Origin: a virus
Reading direction: 5' to 3' (one strand)
Length of the DNA: 33,321 nucleotides
IMG/VR virus record: IMGVR_UViG_3300035670_000810
Span: 1 to 33,321 of that record
Part shown: one piece after another, positions 2,144 through 21,776 of the stretch
How positions within the stretch are numbered: position 1 is the stretch's first letter
Layout of the letters: each line of letters opens with the position of its first letter
Notes under the pieces: model-generated
What the model saw: the letters and a program-made list of their open reading frames with translations, nothing else
Database searches by the model: none
Told to the model about the DNA's origin: nothing
Made by a program: the position numbers and the translations under genes

Positions 2144-3811
2144 TTATGTCGTTTGTACGTCGTTAACTACGCCCAACAATAAACGCGAAACTTCTGATCG
2201 GATAATTGATTTCATGTCGGTTAAATCTTTTATCGTTTCGAATTTTTGTTCTTTGATTAACGATCCAATATTTATATTGAAAACTTTCGGCGCTCCGGCT
2301 GAAATTTCAGAAATACCCGACTTTAAATCCGTTTTCGTGCCTTTTAGCTTCGTTTTCTTTTTTGTTGATAGTTGTGTTTGTGCAATGCTTTTTAATGTCT
2401 TGTCGTCCACGCCTTGAACTTTTCCGCCGGTTTTCTTTTGTATGTTTTGAACGGTTTTTTTTGTTTCTTCCGGAACAACAACATTTAATTTTTTTCTCAT
2501 GCTCTTTATCCATTCCGCACCATTTCCGGCAATCTTACCCAAACCGGGGATTTTAGCGATTAGTTGCAAAAATTGTTGCATAGGCATTAATAAGGCGTCA
2601 AGGATAACCATTCCCAACTTTTTGAAACCGGCAATTATTCCACCAGTTGAAAAAGCACTTTTCAATCCGTCCCAGTTACGGCGTAAAGACTGAATAATTC
2701 CAACAATAACCCCAACCGCCGGGCTTAAAAACATTAACATCATTGCGCCCCACTCTTCGAAATGTCGAATCGCTAAAACAATTCCGGCGACAAGCAACGC
2801 AATTGCTCCAATAATAGCGCCTATTGGGTTCGCGTACATGATTGCGTTCAATGTGGCGAACGCCGTCGAAAAACCACCAGTAAACAAGGTCGCTAAACCT
2901 ACGGCAATTTTATACGCGACAAACGCCCCGCCCACAATACCGACAACAATCGCGATGTCTTTTAATAAGCCTTTATTTTCTAAAATTGCACCCGCCAACG
3001 AAATAAAACCATTAATCGCGGGTTGAATAATATCGAAAATTTTGATAGCTAAATTCTTTAAATTATCAATGACGGTTGACATTCGTCCGGCGGTTGTTTG
3101 CGATTGCTTATTCATCATATCGTAAAAAATCCCACCGTTTGACGTCATATTCATGAATGCTTGGTTCATAACGTCGGACGTGATTGCGCCCTTTTCCCCC
3201 ATTTTCATGACTTCGGCTTTCGTCACGCCGAACATTTTTGCAAGTTCCCCCAGGATCGGAATTCCACGTTCCGAAAATTGGTTTAATTCTTCGGCTTGTA
3301 ATTTACCTTTGTTTGTTGCTTTTTGGAATATTTGCGCCAATTCTTCAATTGGAACGGCTGAACCGGACGCCACGTCGCCAATCATTCTCAAATTTGCTTG
3401 AATATCATTCGCGCCAATTCCGGCGGACAATAACATTCGCGACGCTTTCAAAAGTTCGTCGGTTTCAAAGGGCGTGACCGCTCCAAATTGCTGAACCTGT
3501 TCAATTAGTTGGTTGGCTTCTTTTTGGCTACCTAACAACGTCCCAAATGCGACGCGTGTTTGTTCCATGTTCGCGCCCAATTGGTAAACCTCACGACCCG
3601 CCAACGCGACGCCACCCGCCAACGCCGTCCAACCTACAATTTTTGTAAGCCCACCCAAACGAGAAGATAAACCGCTCGAACCGTCGCCAATATTGTCGGA
3701 CAATCCGTCAACCTTTGAACGTAATTTGTCCATTTGATCCGCAATCGTTTTCAGTGATCCGAAATTCCGATCAATCAATTCAATTATATAGGTTTCGCGA
3801 TTATCCGACAT
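2144..3811 (-). CDS. Tail tape measure protein
   Basis: A 555-residue protein that sets tail length and is thought to be expelled with the DNA. Residues about 80-260 are a classic tape-measure domain: an MEQTRVAFGTLLG opening, a GAVTPFETDELLKASRMLL stretch and a LAQIFQKATNKGKLQAEEL stretch. Two strongly hydrophobic blocks follow (about 283-310 and 327-375), as usual for proteins that cross the host membrane during injection. The C-terminal 100 residues are Lys/Thr-rich. It is short for a tape measure; using the usual rule of about 0.15 nm per residue the tail would be near 80 nm. It directly follows the frameshifted chaperone, the conserved order for tailed phages. Confidence 0.92.
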   Translation of the reverse strand: MSDNRETYIIELIDRNFGSLKTIADQMDKLRSKVDGLSDNIGDGSSGLSSRLGGLTKIVGWTALAGGVALAGREVYQLGANMEQTRVAFGTLLGSQKEANQLIEQVQQFGAVTPFETDELLKASRMLLSAGIGANDIQANLRMIGDVASGSAVPIEELAQIFQKATNKGKLQAEELNQFSERGIPILGELAKMFGVTKAEVMKMGEKGAITSDVMNQAFMNMTSNGGIFYDMMNKQSQTTAGRMSTVIDNLKNLAIKIFDIIQPAINGFISLAGAILENKGLLKDIAIVVGIVGGAFVAYKIAVGLATLFTGGFSTAFATLNAIMYANPIGAIIGAIALLVAGIVLAIRHFEEWGAMMLMFLSPAVGVIVGIIQSLRRNWDGLKSAFSTGGIIAGFKKLGMVILDALLMPMQQFLQLIAKIPGLGKIAGNGAEWIKSMRKKLNVVVPEETKKTVQNIQKKTGGKVQGVDDKTLKSIAQTQLSTKKKTKLKGTKTDLKSGISEISAGAPKVFNINIGSLIKEQKFETIKDLTDMKSIIRSEVSRLLLGVVNDVQTT

Positions 3812-3823
3812 ATATTTAATTTT

Positions 3824-4305
3824 TTAACTTTCTTCACTCATTCCAAAACGCTTTGCTTCATGTTCTAAACAGTATTTTAAATCATTCCACAACTTCGCAA
3901 AATCATAATCGTTCAACTGATCCGGATCTATTTTAAAATGAAAACGGATCAAAGCCGACATTTTGCGAATTTCGTCTTCGTTTTTCCCCGGACGAATTGC
4001 CGTCCGGCTTATAACTTTTTTAGGCTTGAACTTTTTCGTTCAATTAATTGAACCGCATTTAAGCACGCGTCGACATACAATTCCGGATCGGTTTTTAATT
4101 CTTCGTCGCCCGAAATCCAACACGAATTTAAAATCAATTCGCCCGCCGTAATCATTTTAGGCGTTCCGGTTAATGGCATGATTAAACCCAACGCTTGTTC
4201 CATTACTGGACGCGTTATCGCTTTTAAATAACATTTTTTTCCCTCAATTTCCAAAACGTATTTCGCGCCATTTGGGATTGTTTCATTTGTTTTTTCCATT
4301 TCCAT
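3824..4305 (-). CDS. Tail assembly chaperone, -1 frameshift fusion product (G-T type)
   Basis: Predicted 160-residue product made when ribosomes slip back one base at 4015-4021. It keeps the first 97 residues of the short chaperone and adds 63 residues (starting VISRTAIRPGKNEDEIRKMS) read in the -1 frame from 4015 to the TAA at 3824-3826. The extension frame is closed by a stop at 4040-4042 and has no start codon before the slip site, so it is reached only by slipping or from an internal ATG at 3959-3961. The extension is rich in Asp, Lys and aromatic residues (LNDYDFAKLWNDLKYCLEHE) and looks like real protein. In other tailed phages the long form binds the tape measure and recruits tube subunits. 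Confidence 0.82.
3988..4021 (-). promoter_or_regulatory. Programmed -1 ribosomal frameshift signal
   Basis: Read on the minus strand, a slippery heptamer A_AAA_AAG (4021 to 4015) is in the correct phase: the zero-frame codons are CTA AAA AAG. After a 7-base spacer (4014-4008) comes a perfect 7-bp stem, CCGGACG (4007-4001) pairing with CGTCCGG (3994-3988) around a 6-base loop GCAATT. Heptamer, spacer length and a strong GC hairpin in otherwise AT-rich DNA together match the standard -1 frameshift element, the same heptamer used by E. coli dnaX. Confidence 0.88.
4009..4305 (-). CDS. Tail assembly chaperone, short form (G-like)
   Basis: A 98-residue protein between tail tube and tape measure genes, the fixed position of the tail assembly chaperone. 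The sequence (NGAKYVLEIEGKKCYLKAIT near the N-terminus, then a helical region with GLIMPLTGTPKMITAGELIL) resembles small Mu-like and Bacteroidota phage chaperones. It ends SSLKKL immediately after the slippery heptamer, and most ribosomes should stop here. The start is the complement of the CAT at 4303-4305; the leader upstream is A-rich. Both short and long forms are needed in fixed ratio in phages where this was tested. Confidence 0.8.
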   Translation of the reverse strand: MEMEKTNETIPNGAKYVLEIEGKKCYLKAITRPVMEQALGLIMPLTGTPKMITAGELILNSCWISGDEELKTDPELYVDACLNAVQLIERKSSSLKKL

Positions 4306-4346
4306 AAAATCAAAAATTTAATTTATTATTTGAACGGTAAAAATAC

Positions 4347-4377
4347 AAAAAAACCCGAACGAATTTGTCCGGGTTTT
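4347..4377 (-). terminator. Intrinsic terminator between tail tube and tail chaperone genes
   Basis: On the minus strand AAAACCCG (4377-4370) and CGGGTTTT (4357-4350) form an 8-bp stem, with two further possible pairs past a mismatch, followed by a run of T (complement of the A-run 4347-4353). It sits in the 98-base gap after the tube gene and faces the late transcript. It would lower expression of the chaperone, tape measure and baseplate genes compared with capsid, sheath and tube, which are needed in many more copies. Confidence 0.75.
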
Positions 4378-4403: not shown

Positions 4404-4817
4404 TTATCTCCATACAATATGCGACGGCAATAAGTCGTATTTATATTTCAAATCGGTGTCGCCTTGCGTTCCCGAAACGCCGTCTTTCAAAAACTCACAA
4501 TTTTTTAAAACGTGCGTTGTTGGGTTTTGAGGATTTCCGAAAAAAACCGTAATATCAAATGCCGGAACTTGCAATAAAGATCCGTTTGGTGCAACTCGTC
4601 GAATTGCTTCGGCGTCGTTCATTGAAAATTCAATTGACGCCGTCACTTCAATAGCGCCCGCACCTCTTGAAACTGGTCTATTTCCGGCGCCGTAATTATT
4701 TTTTTTATCTTGCGTTTCTTCATAGTCGATTGCAGAAACCGACGCTACTGGAACGCCTAAAACCGTTACGATTACTTGCGCGAAATCATACGCGCGTCCG
4801 TTAATTAATGGTTGCAT
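4404..4817 (-). CDS. Tail tube protein
   Basis: A 137-residue beta-rich protein forming the inner tube of the contractile tail. It follows the sheath gene by 11 bases and precedes the chaperone, as in other myoviruses. The pattern is that of tube proteins: INGRAYDFAQVIVTVLG at the N-terminus, a YEETQDKKNNYGAGNRPVSR loop and a TASIEFSMNDAEAIRRV segment, then alternating strands. A terminator lies just after its stop. The call rests on order, size and pattern. Confidence 0.82.
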   Translation of the reverse strand: MQPLINGRAYDFAQVIVTVLGVPVASVSAIDYEETQDKKNNYGAGNRPVSRGAGAIEVTASIEFSMNDAEAIRRVAPNGSLLQVPAFDITVFFGNPQNPTTHVLKNCEFLKDGVSGTQGDTDLKYKYDLLPSHIVWR

Positions 4818-4828
4818 ATCTTTTTAAA

Positions 4829-6010
4829 TTAAATGTTTAAGGCAAAGCCAATATTTAACACTATCTCACGCGCTACGCCCACCGGAACCAATTTAATGGC
4901 AATTGATAATTGACCGGTTGACAATACGTTTTGAGCCGGATTAATTGTTACACTAAATGCGGACAATTCGCCGTCAATTTCCATTGATTCCAAACCGCGT
5001 GACGCTTCATTTTTGAATAACGAAATTGTGTTTTCGTCCAATGTTCCGTCTTCATTAATGTACAATGGCGAATTAATGAACGGCAACATGAACGAACGAA
5101 CATTGCGAACCGCTTTGTCAATTGTTCTGTTGTTTTCAATATACGCGTAATCGCTTGTTACTGAAATACAAGTCGGCGCGTCATTGAAAAATGTTCCCGC
5201 AAACCCCGGACGTTTTATCAAAAAGATATATCCGTAATCGCTTAACCCATTCAAAGCCGTTTTAGAAATCGTTTTCACTTGTACCGACGCCGAATTCAAA
5301 GAAATTGCCGGAACGTCAAATTCTGATCCGTCAACGACATTGAATTGACCAACCCAACCGATATTCTCATGAACCTTTGACAATGAAACCATTCCCAAAA
5401 CCGCACCAATACAACCCAATGATTTCCCAGTTGCCGTTGCAATTGCCGTTCCGTCGTTTGCTCCGTCTTCGCCAATACATACAGAAACATTTTTGCAACT
5501 TAACGCCCTCAAATCAACAAATCCGCCAACGGTTGCAATCCCGCGCGTATTTGCCGAATAAATAACGCTTAACGGCATGTCTTCGCCCTCTAAAATTGTC
5601 GCACTTGCTTGTAGTGTCGTAACTTTCGCCGTCGCAAATGCCGTGTTCGGATCAAAGAAACCGATTTGACGAATTTCGCCGTCCGCTGACCTTTGCAAAG
5701 TTTCAATTGATGAATAGTCGATTGCGGTGTCGTCAATCAAATGGATATACAATTTGCCGTTTGGTTGCTTCTTGAAAAACTGGTTCAAGTGATACCATAT
5801 TTGCGTCGTATATGTTCCGGCCTTAACAATTCCCAACGCTTCAACGTCCGAAATCGAATAAACGATTTTTGTTCGATCCGTTGTCGAAAATCCCGCCGGT
5901 AAATTTGCGTTTGTAAACGGCATAATAAAACCGGAAATATGATCGTTCGTCGCTAATGGACGACCTAAACCACCTTTGCCACGGTTTACCGTAATTTTAG
6001 AAATTCCCAT
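4829..6010 (-). CDS. Tail sheath protein (DUF2586-like)
   Basis: A 393-residue protein resembling the DUF2586 tail-sheath family of Bacteroidota phages. It opens MGISKITVNRGKGGLGRP, followed by a DHISGFIMPF stretch, and has a conserved C-terminal domain with NVRSFMLPFINSPLYINEDG (residues 300-320) and a final strand-rich part VLNIGFALNI. Sheath subunits contract to drive the tube through the host envelope, so its presence shows the virion is a myovirus. It is followed 11 bases later by the tube gene, as expected. Confidence 0.88.
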   Translation of the reverse strand: MGISKITVNRGKGGLGRPLATNDHISGFIMPFTNANLPAGFSTTDRTKIVYSISDVEALGIVKAGTYTTQIWYHLNQFFKKQPNGKLYIHLIDDTAIDYSSIETLQRSADGEIRQIGFFDPNTAFATAKVTTLQASATILEGEDMPLSVIYSANTRGIATVGGFVDLRALSCKNVSVCIGEDGANDGTAIATATGKSLGCIGAVLGMVSLSKVHENIGWVGQFNVVDGSEFDVPAISLNSASVQVKTISKTALNGLSDYGYIFLIKRPGFAGTFFNDAPTCISVTSDYAYIENNRTIDKAVRNVRSFMLPFINSPLYINEDGTLDENTISLFKNEASRGLESMEIDGELSAFSVTINPAQNVLSTGQLSIAIKLVPVGVAREIVLNIGFALNI

Positions 6011-20844: not shown

Positions 20845-20918
20845 TTTTGATTTTAATTATTCGTTAACAGCCTTTTTAATTATTTTTTCAGCTTCTTTAA
20901 TTTGGTTTTTTAAATCCA
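20845..20918. repeat. 74-base repeat, copy 1 (3' end of small gene)
   Basis: This stretch and 21196-21269 match at 71 of 74 positions in the same orientation. They cover the shared C-terminus of two small genes and their leader-proximal region. Three mismatches imply recent duplication or recombination. Confidence 0.85.
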
Positions 20919-21039
20919 CGTTGAAACGATCAAAAAATTTGATCGAATTAATGATTTCCGGTTGATCAAATGAATTTTTCAGTTGAACCGAAATTGTGTT
21001 GTTTATTTTTGTTACTTGCATAATATTTTGATTTACCAT
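20857..21039 (-). CDS. Small mosaic paralogue, copy B
   Basis: A 60-residue protein. Its N-terminal and middle parts match copy A (20444-20605), whereas its last 16 residues (NQIKEAEKIIKKAVNE) are identical to the end of the protein at 21208-21459. The shared end corresponds to a 74-base DNA repeat. The ATG at 21037-21039 overlaps the stop of a tiny membrane gene. No known function. Confidence 0.65.
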   Translation of the reverse strand: MVNQNIMQVTKINNTISVQLKNSFDQPEIINSIKFFDRFNVDLKNQIKEAEKIIKKAVNE

Positions 21040-21195: not shown

Positions 21196-21269
21196 TTTTG
21201 ATTTTAATTATTCGTTAACAGCCTTTTTGATTATTTTTTCAGCTTCTTTGATTTGGTTTTCTAAATCCA
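21196..21269. repeat. 74-base repeat, copy 2
   Basis: Second copy of the repeat at 20845-20918 (71 of 74 identical). It covers the end of the 83-residue gene at 21208-21459 and 12 bases beyond its stop. Confidence 0.85.
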
Positions 21270-21459
21270 TTATCAACTGACAAACAACATAATTTCTCAA
21301 AGGTTTATGTTTAGGATTAAAATCTATATTGTTCCAACCTCCTTTTGTAAAAACTCTTAATTCAATATCAAAGTCATTCTCATTTGACTTAATTGTTTTT
21401 ATTCTATGCTTACACTTTTCTATTATTTGTAAGTTCTCTTTTATTATATCTGTATTCAT
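21208..21459 (-). CDS. Small mosaic paralogue, copy C
   Basis: An 83-residue protein with a distinct N-terminal domain (MNTDIIKENLQIIEKCKHRI, then a beta-rich part ELRVFTKGGWNNIDF) joined to the same C-terminal segment ENQIKEAEKIIKKAVNE found in copy B. It overlaps the RlpA-like gene by 4 bases. The unlike N-terminus with the same tail shows exchange of gene pieces. No function known. Confidence 0.65.
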   Translation of the reverse strand: MNTDIIKENLQIIEKCKHRIKTIKSNENDFDIELRVFTKGGWNNIDFNPKHKPLRNYVVCQLIMDLENQIKEAEKIIKKAVNE

Positions 21460-21776
21460 AACTTTTTGATTTTAATTTTAACAATACCGACTTTTATGTC
21501 GGCTATTTTCTTGAATGCTTTTTCGGACAAATCCAAAGTCACTTTTTTAAATGATCCGGTGTCATTCACGCGAACAACGACCGATTTTCCATTTTCTATA
21601 TTTGTAACTTTCAAAACCGATCCTATTGGATAAACATTTGACGCACATGTCAATTTGTTTTTGTCAAATATTTCGCCCGACTTTGTTATTCGTCCGTGAA
21701 ATTGTTTTCCGTACCACGTTGCGCGGTGCGTTGCTGATAAACAAACAACGCCCGCGATTATGATTAATTTTTTCAT
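21456..21776 (-). CDS. RlpA-like double-psi beta-barrel protein, secreted
   Basis: A 106-residue protein with a short signal peptide (MKKLIIIAGVVCLSA) followed by a single RlpA-like domain: ATWYGKQFHGRITKSGEIFD (19-38), YPIGSVLKVTNIENGKSV (49-66) and VVRVNDTGSF (67-76). RlpA proteins cut or bind peptidoglycan. Glu35 and Asp38 are kept, but the family's conserved His of the TAAH motif is replaced by Ser46 (LTCAS), so catalysis may be lost. It is in the early leftward block rather than in the lysis cassette, hinting at a role other than lysis. Confidence 0.75.
   Translation of the reverse strand: MKKLIIIAGVVCLSATHRATWYGKQFHGRITKSGEIFDKNKLTCASNVYPIGSVLKVTNIENGKSVVVRVNDTGSFKKVTLDLSEKAFKKIADIKVGIVKIKIKKL

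Follow-up and report, generated by a model that had tools for sequence, protein, structure and literature searches.

A probable -1 frameshift linking G- and T-like reading frames in the tail gene cluster of contractile-tailed Bacteroidota phages

The DNA analysed here, a 33,321-base IMG/VR virus record (IMGVR_UViG_3300035670_000810, positions 1 to 33,321; hereafter the window), contains a short tail-cluster gene, G, that is followed in the -1 frame by an open reading frame, T, ending just ahead of the tape measure gene. This arrangement raises the question of whether G and T form a tail chaperone cassette of the lambda type, in which some ribosomes would shift frame near the end of G, or whether T has to be explained in another way. 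It has been reported that conservation of the G/GT frameshift extends widely across the long-tailed dsDNA phages (PMC5009743). The features of the locus are the following.

4829..6010, minus strand: tail sheath gene (DUF2586); Pfam DUF2586 E=2.6e-38, PHROG tail sheath E=3.8e-36
4404..4817, minus strand: probable tail tube protein, directly upstream of G; phrog_4579 tail protein E=1e-14, together with its place behind the sheath gene
4343..4377, minus strand: hairpin and T-run resembling an intrinsic terminator, located between tube gene and G; recurs in relatives
4009..4305, minus strand: G, zero-frame product of 98 aa ending SLKKL; an ORF conserved in relatives, matching phrog_19076 ('unknown function') with E=1.8e-12
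4015..4021, minus strand: in-phase slippery heptamer A_AAA_AAG, 10 nt ahead of the G stop codon; 29 of 37 distinct loci have a motif of this class there
4008..4014, minus strand: 7-nt spacer TTATAAG, containing the zero-frame stop TAA (4011-4009)
3988..4007, minus strand: possible stimulatory hairpin of 7 bp, CCGGACG/CGTCCGG with loop GCAATT, 7 nt past the heptamer
3824..4015, minus strand: T-like extension in the -1 frame, 63 codons and a stop codon, by translation; dN/dS well below 1
2144..3811, minus strand: tape measure protein, 555 aa, directly downstream of T; Pfam TMP_3 E=6e-25, PHROG tape measure E=1.5e-48

According to Pfam and PHROG matches, the gene order at the locus is sheath (DUF2586), probable tube, G, T, tape measure and baseplate hub proteins, which is the usual contractile-tail order, and the DUF2586 sheath gene indicates that the tail is contractile. 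It should be noted that the tube candidate at 4404..4817 also matches phrog_9206, named major head protein (E=2.5e-17). Isolates keep the same order, with G and T located between the tube gene (4404-4817 in the window) and the tape measure gene (2144-3811). The cultured relatives nearest to the window are Flavobacterium phages placed in Winoviridae, and the window phage is a contractile-tailed phage of Bacteroidota.

Inspection of the minus strand shows that the zero frame at the end of G reads AGC CTA AAA AAG TTA TAA, with the stop one codon past the heptamer. The anatomy that a sequence-only reading of the window had described is present in all its parts: A_AAA_AAG lies in phase at 4021-4015, the 7-base spacer and the 7-bp hairpin occupy 4014-3988, and translation gives a -1 frame of 63 codons (4015-3827) that runs to a TAA at 3826-3824 and has no start codon before the slip. 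The gap between the short chaperone and the tape measure, which T had been said to fill, is indeed occupied, with T ending at 3824. Upstream of the slip, the -1 frame is open for 8 codons only (from 4039), and ATG, GTG and TTG are absent from that part; the first ATG in this frame is located at 3961-3959. The G-T fusion is predicted to have 160 aa (97 + 63), and the predicted tryptic peptides of the window T past the slip include VISR, TAIRPGK and IDPDQLNDYDFAK. AAAAAAG is present in 22 copies in the window, against 30 expected by chance in this A-rich genome. Thus, a heptamer of this kind is unremarkable in an A-rich window, the window by itself proves little, and the case must rest on relatives.

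Relatives were collected with two queries. Firstly, with G as the query we found five viral contigs; in all five, and in FPSV-S1, A_AAA_AAG is located exactly 10 nt before the G stop and T is open in the -1 frame. Secondly, with the T alignment as the query, and hence with the slip site outside the query, we found 41 loci in viral contigs and 5 in bacterial genomes (46), two of which are so truncated that G cannot be seen; after removal of near-identical contigs and addition of the window and FPSV-S1, 37 distinct loci were obtained. T lies in the -1 frame of the upstream G in all 37, and T in the +1 frame, fused in frame to G, or free-standing was found in none of them. Exactly 10 nt before the G stop, 29 of the 37 loci have A_AAA_AAR (A_AAA_AAG in 22 and A_AAA_AAA in 7) and another four have G_GAA_AAG, which gives perfect re-pairing for the A_AAG tetramer only. 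The A_AAA_AAR motif is displaced in three loci: in L019 the G stop is lost, G ends 15 nt later and the heptamer is retained, and in L023 and L039 G still ends in KKL, but its lysines are coded AAG AAA, which is not slippery, and an in-phase A_AAA_AAA lies 15 nt upstream instead. The overlap in L059 has canonical heptamers solely at positions further upstream, and its likeliest slip site is, tentatively, A_AAT_TTT at -31. The carriers of G_GAA_AAG 10 nt before the G stop are L031, L032, L034 and L061, plus the gut phage record L066.

Lys-Lys pairs elsewhere in the same loci served as a control. The form A_AAA_AAR is seen in 58/220 (26%) of these, whereas at the slip position all 29 Lys-Lys pairs without another slip site have it. 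It is this difference, 29/37 with A_AAA_AAR at -10 versus 26% of the Lys-Lys pairs elsewhere, that lifts the slip site above chance. Counts over the 37 loci are non-independent through phylogeny, and as a counterweight we clustered them at 60% T identity, after which A_AAA_AAR at -10 is present in 14 of 17 clusters. The sequence-only reading had proposed comparing the two frames across related phages; this comparison finds both the heptamer and the open -1 frame conserved, so that its central claim, a programmed -1 frameshift from a short chaperone into a T-like extension, is strongly supported.

The same comparison bears on the explanation that a homopolymer error in sequencing or assembly produced the frame break, which coincides with an A6 run, or that T is a decayed in-frame tail. 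The distinct contigs with this arrangement number 37, cultured phage genomes among them, and purifying selection acts on T; these comparative data refute both versions, and we assign them a vanishingly small probability. A different explanation is that the shift is transcriptional, with RNA polymerase slipping on the A-run and producing mixed mRNAs. The slip site is an A-run, and three loci (L025, L043 and L046) have nine A's, which by the length rule is long enough for polymerase slippage. However, the run is no longer than A6 in the window and most relatives and is only A4 in the four relatives with G_GAA_AAG, and transcriptional slippage does not require the fixed frame phase of the motif. 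We regard it as very unlikely.

Several observations show that T is a coding sequence and bear on how it is translated. The T proteins of the distinct loci are 27-83% identical to the window T, and their alignment has an invariant A, L and L, and nearly invariant K, R, F, D, P, W and L. Pairwise dN/dS values for T range from 0.04 to 0.39 (0.19 for the window versus its relative L008), indicating that purifying selection acts on T. It could be argued that T is a separate small gene with its own start, translated by re-initiation after the G stop or from the ATG at 3961, and not part of a fusion: this ATG is in frame in T, and the depositors of the lotta8-1 genome annotated a truncated T (gp039, 42 aa) from an internal start. 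However, roughly half of the loci have Ile in place of the Met of this ATG, and T is conserved also upstream of it. Furthermore, no ATG, GTG or TTG is present anywhere in the T frame of four loci (L024, L040, L045 and L059), which argues against independent translation, and a separate gene would not require the conserved phase and position of the heptamer. We consider a separate T gene highly improbable, and prefer the reading in which T is translated as an extension of G. The claim that T is missed by simple gene calling also holds for the deposited genomes, T being unannotated in the FPSV-S1 and Peternella records and truncated in that of lotta8-1. No T family was found in Pfam or PHROGs, as expected where gene callers do not see the ORF, and we found no mention of a tail-chaperone frameshift in the available portions of the Winoviridae and Flavobacterium phage papers PMC8776804, PMC7077304 and PMC10367356.

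What, then, might G and T do? G belongs to the same PHROG (phrog_19076) in 34/37 loci. G and T were modelled as separate chains; the predicted G model consists of a beta-hairpin followed by helices (pLDDT 91.7), and the predicted T model of two helices (pLDDT 88). A Foldseek search of the G model against viral models returned several tail assembly chaperones as weak matches (E 0.01-0.4; best named match E=0.012), and searches against the PDB gave nothing significant for G and no match for T. At the sequence level, no match of G or T to a named chaperone family was found in Pfam, PHROGs or the PDB. The sequence-only reading had held that the arrangement is exactly that of other tailed phages; this applies to the gene order and the logic, but not to the proteins, neither of which matches a known chaperone family by sequence. 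It is conceivable that G and T are linked by frameshifting and yet are not tail chaperones, having some other role in tail assembly, with which the missing sequence matches and the weak fold evidence would agree. We judge this unlikely, however: the position between tube and tape measure and the short product with a -1 extension point to G/GT, and the best named viral fold match of G is a tail assembly chaperone. We infer a tail chaperone role for G and T from position, frameshift and the weak fold match, and mainly from the first two.

In 12 of the 37 loci (L007, L021, L024, L026, L030, L033, L035, L037, L038, L041, L042 and L045), a single G chain of about 175-183 aa contains two tandem G-like domains, and the -1 slip and T still follow. 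Profile comparison of the first domain of the two-G chain with the G alignment gave a probability of 99.1% and E = 1.4e-18. The window G has one domain.

Direct observation covers the anatomy of the slip site, the conservation in 37 loci, the coding selection on T, and the synteny with the tube and tape measure genes. In our view the locus is very probably a lambda-type G/GT tail-chaperone cassette with a -1 frameshift and a G-T fusion. Most ribosomes would read G and stop after 98 aa, leaving G in excess, and at A_AAA_AAG the tRNA-Lys(UUU) in the P and A sites of a minority of ribosomes would re-pair one base back, from AAA AAG to AAA AAA, after which reading would continue through T to give the 160-aa fusion. 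In the window lineage, the hairpin may raise the shift rate. As in lambda, G may coat or bind the tape measure and T may recruit tube subunits (PMC5009743). That the shift occurs is inferred, as are its rate, the effect of the hairpin and the roles of G and T.

The hairpin had been claimed as part of the signal. It is real in the window, where folding of a 62-nt stretch gives -15.5 kcal/mol (z = -2.7; 3/200 shuffles as good), but it is not conserved: a local hairpin scan, evaluated against control positions, found a strong simple hairpin at 7 nt in only three of the 37 loci, namely the window, its nearest relative L008, and L062. The stem is identical in the window and L008, so that this pair offers no compensatory change. 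L062, a distant prophage, has an unrelated stem sequence in the same register, suggesting that a similar hairpin arose there. RNAalifold analysis of two groups revealed no conserved RNA structure downstream of the slip, and the window hairpin would be at best a lineage-specific stimulator. A Shine-Dalgarno-like stimulator upstream of the slip is absent from the window and present in 6/37 loci. The hairpin scan, RNAalifold and the Shine-Dalgarno scan thus found no stimulator conserved in the family, whether a structure or Shine-Dalgarno-like.

For E. coli, A_AAA_AAG ranks in the top three heptamers by efficiency and A_AAG first of the tetramers, and some shifting is seen at most heptamers when no stimulator is present (PMC4066793). 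The shiftiness of A_AAA_AAG has been attributed to tRNA-Lys(UUU) reading AAG (PMC5009743; also PMC4066793 for the role of the tRNA). In two prophage-bearing host assemblies, both of them MAGs that may be incomplete and neither known as a host of the window phage, tRNA-Lys(UUU) is the only lysine tRNA seen. A possible, though rather doubtful, reading of the group as a whole is that frameshifting is set almost wholly by the heptamer and the stop one codon later, without conserved RNA structure or Shine-Dalgarno sequence, that some lineages use the weaker G_GAA_AAG, and that the G:GT ratio is tuned otherwise, for example by the two-G fusion or by a terminator upstream of G.

The terminator-like element upstream of G is also present in L008, L009, L010, L014, L015, L016, L019, L025, L032 and L059. 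In the single-G phages close to the window it occupies the same place with different stem sequences, and 6 of 12 pairs have changed on both sides (compensatory); no terminator between tube and G was found in those two-G phages that could be examined. The element may lower the expression of the G/GT/tape-measure block, setting tube versus chaperone/tape-measure transcript levels.

Comparison with known systems places the locus as follows. Like lambda gpG/gpGT, it combines a short chaperone ORF with a -1 extension that has no start of its own, placed between the tube and tape measure genes, and has a canonical heptamer near the end of G. It differs from lambda, whose slip site is G_GGA_AAG, in its A_AAA_AAG heptamer, its contractile tail, its Bacteroidota hosts, and in that G and T have no detected sequence relationship to a named chaperone family. 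With E. coli dnaX and IS911 it shares the A_AAA_AAG heptamer, and the window hairpin at 7 nt falls in the 4-10 nt stimulator range used in PMC4066793; unlike these, the window lacks an upstream Shine-Dalgarno-like stimulator, the genes are unrelated, and the hairpin is not conserved in the family. The closest parallels are the cultured Winoviridae, Flavobacterium phages lotta8-1 and FPSV-S1 and Winogradskyella phage Peternella, whose sheath or tail genes are homologous and follow the same order, whose G and T are homologues of those of the window, and which have A_AAA_AAG 10 nt before the G stop. Lotta8-1 and FPSV-S1 have two tandem G domains (175-180 aa), whereas G has a single domain in the window and in Peternella.

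Mechanistically this is textbook material, and the value of these results lies in annotation. The family phrog_19076 gains a probable function, tail assembly chaperone, and a conserved T domain is added, absent from Pfam and PHROGs alike, which annotation by ORFs overlooks or cuts short in the cultured phages of Flavobacterium and Winogradskyella. Moreover, the natural slip-site variants at homologous positions (A_AAA_AAG, A_AAA_AAA, G_GAA_AAG and displaced sites) provide material for testing the determinants of frameshift rate in Bacteroidota, in which Shine-Dalgarno use by the ribosome is unlike that in E. coli.

Elsewhere in the window, a 74-nt direct repeat (20845-20918 and 21196-21269; 96% identical) covers the 3' ends of the small ORFs at 20857-21039 and 21208-21459 on the minus strand, which have a common C-terminal tail, NQIKEAEKIIKKAVNE. 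A small double-psi beta-barrel protein (DPBB_1, RlpA-like) is encoded at 21456-21776 on the minus strand, among small genes and far from the lysis genes.
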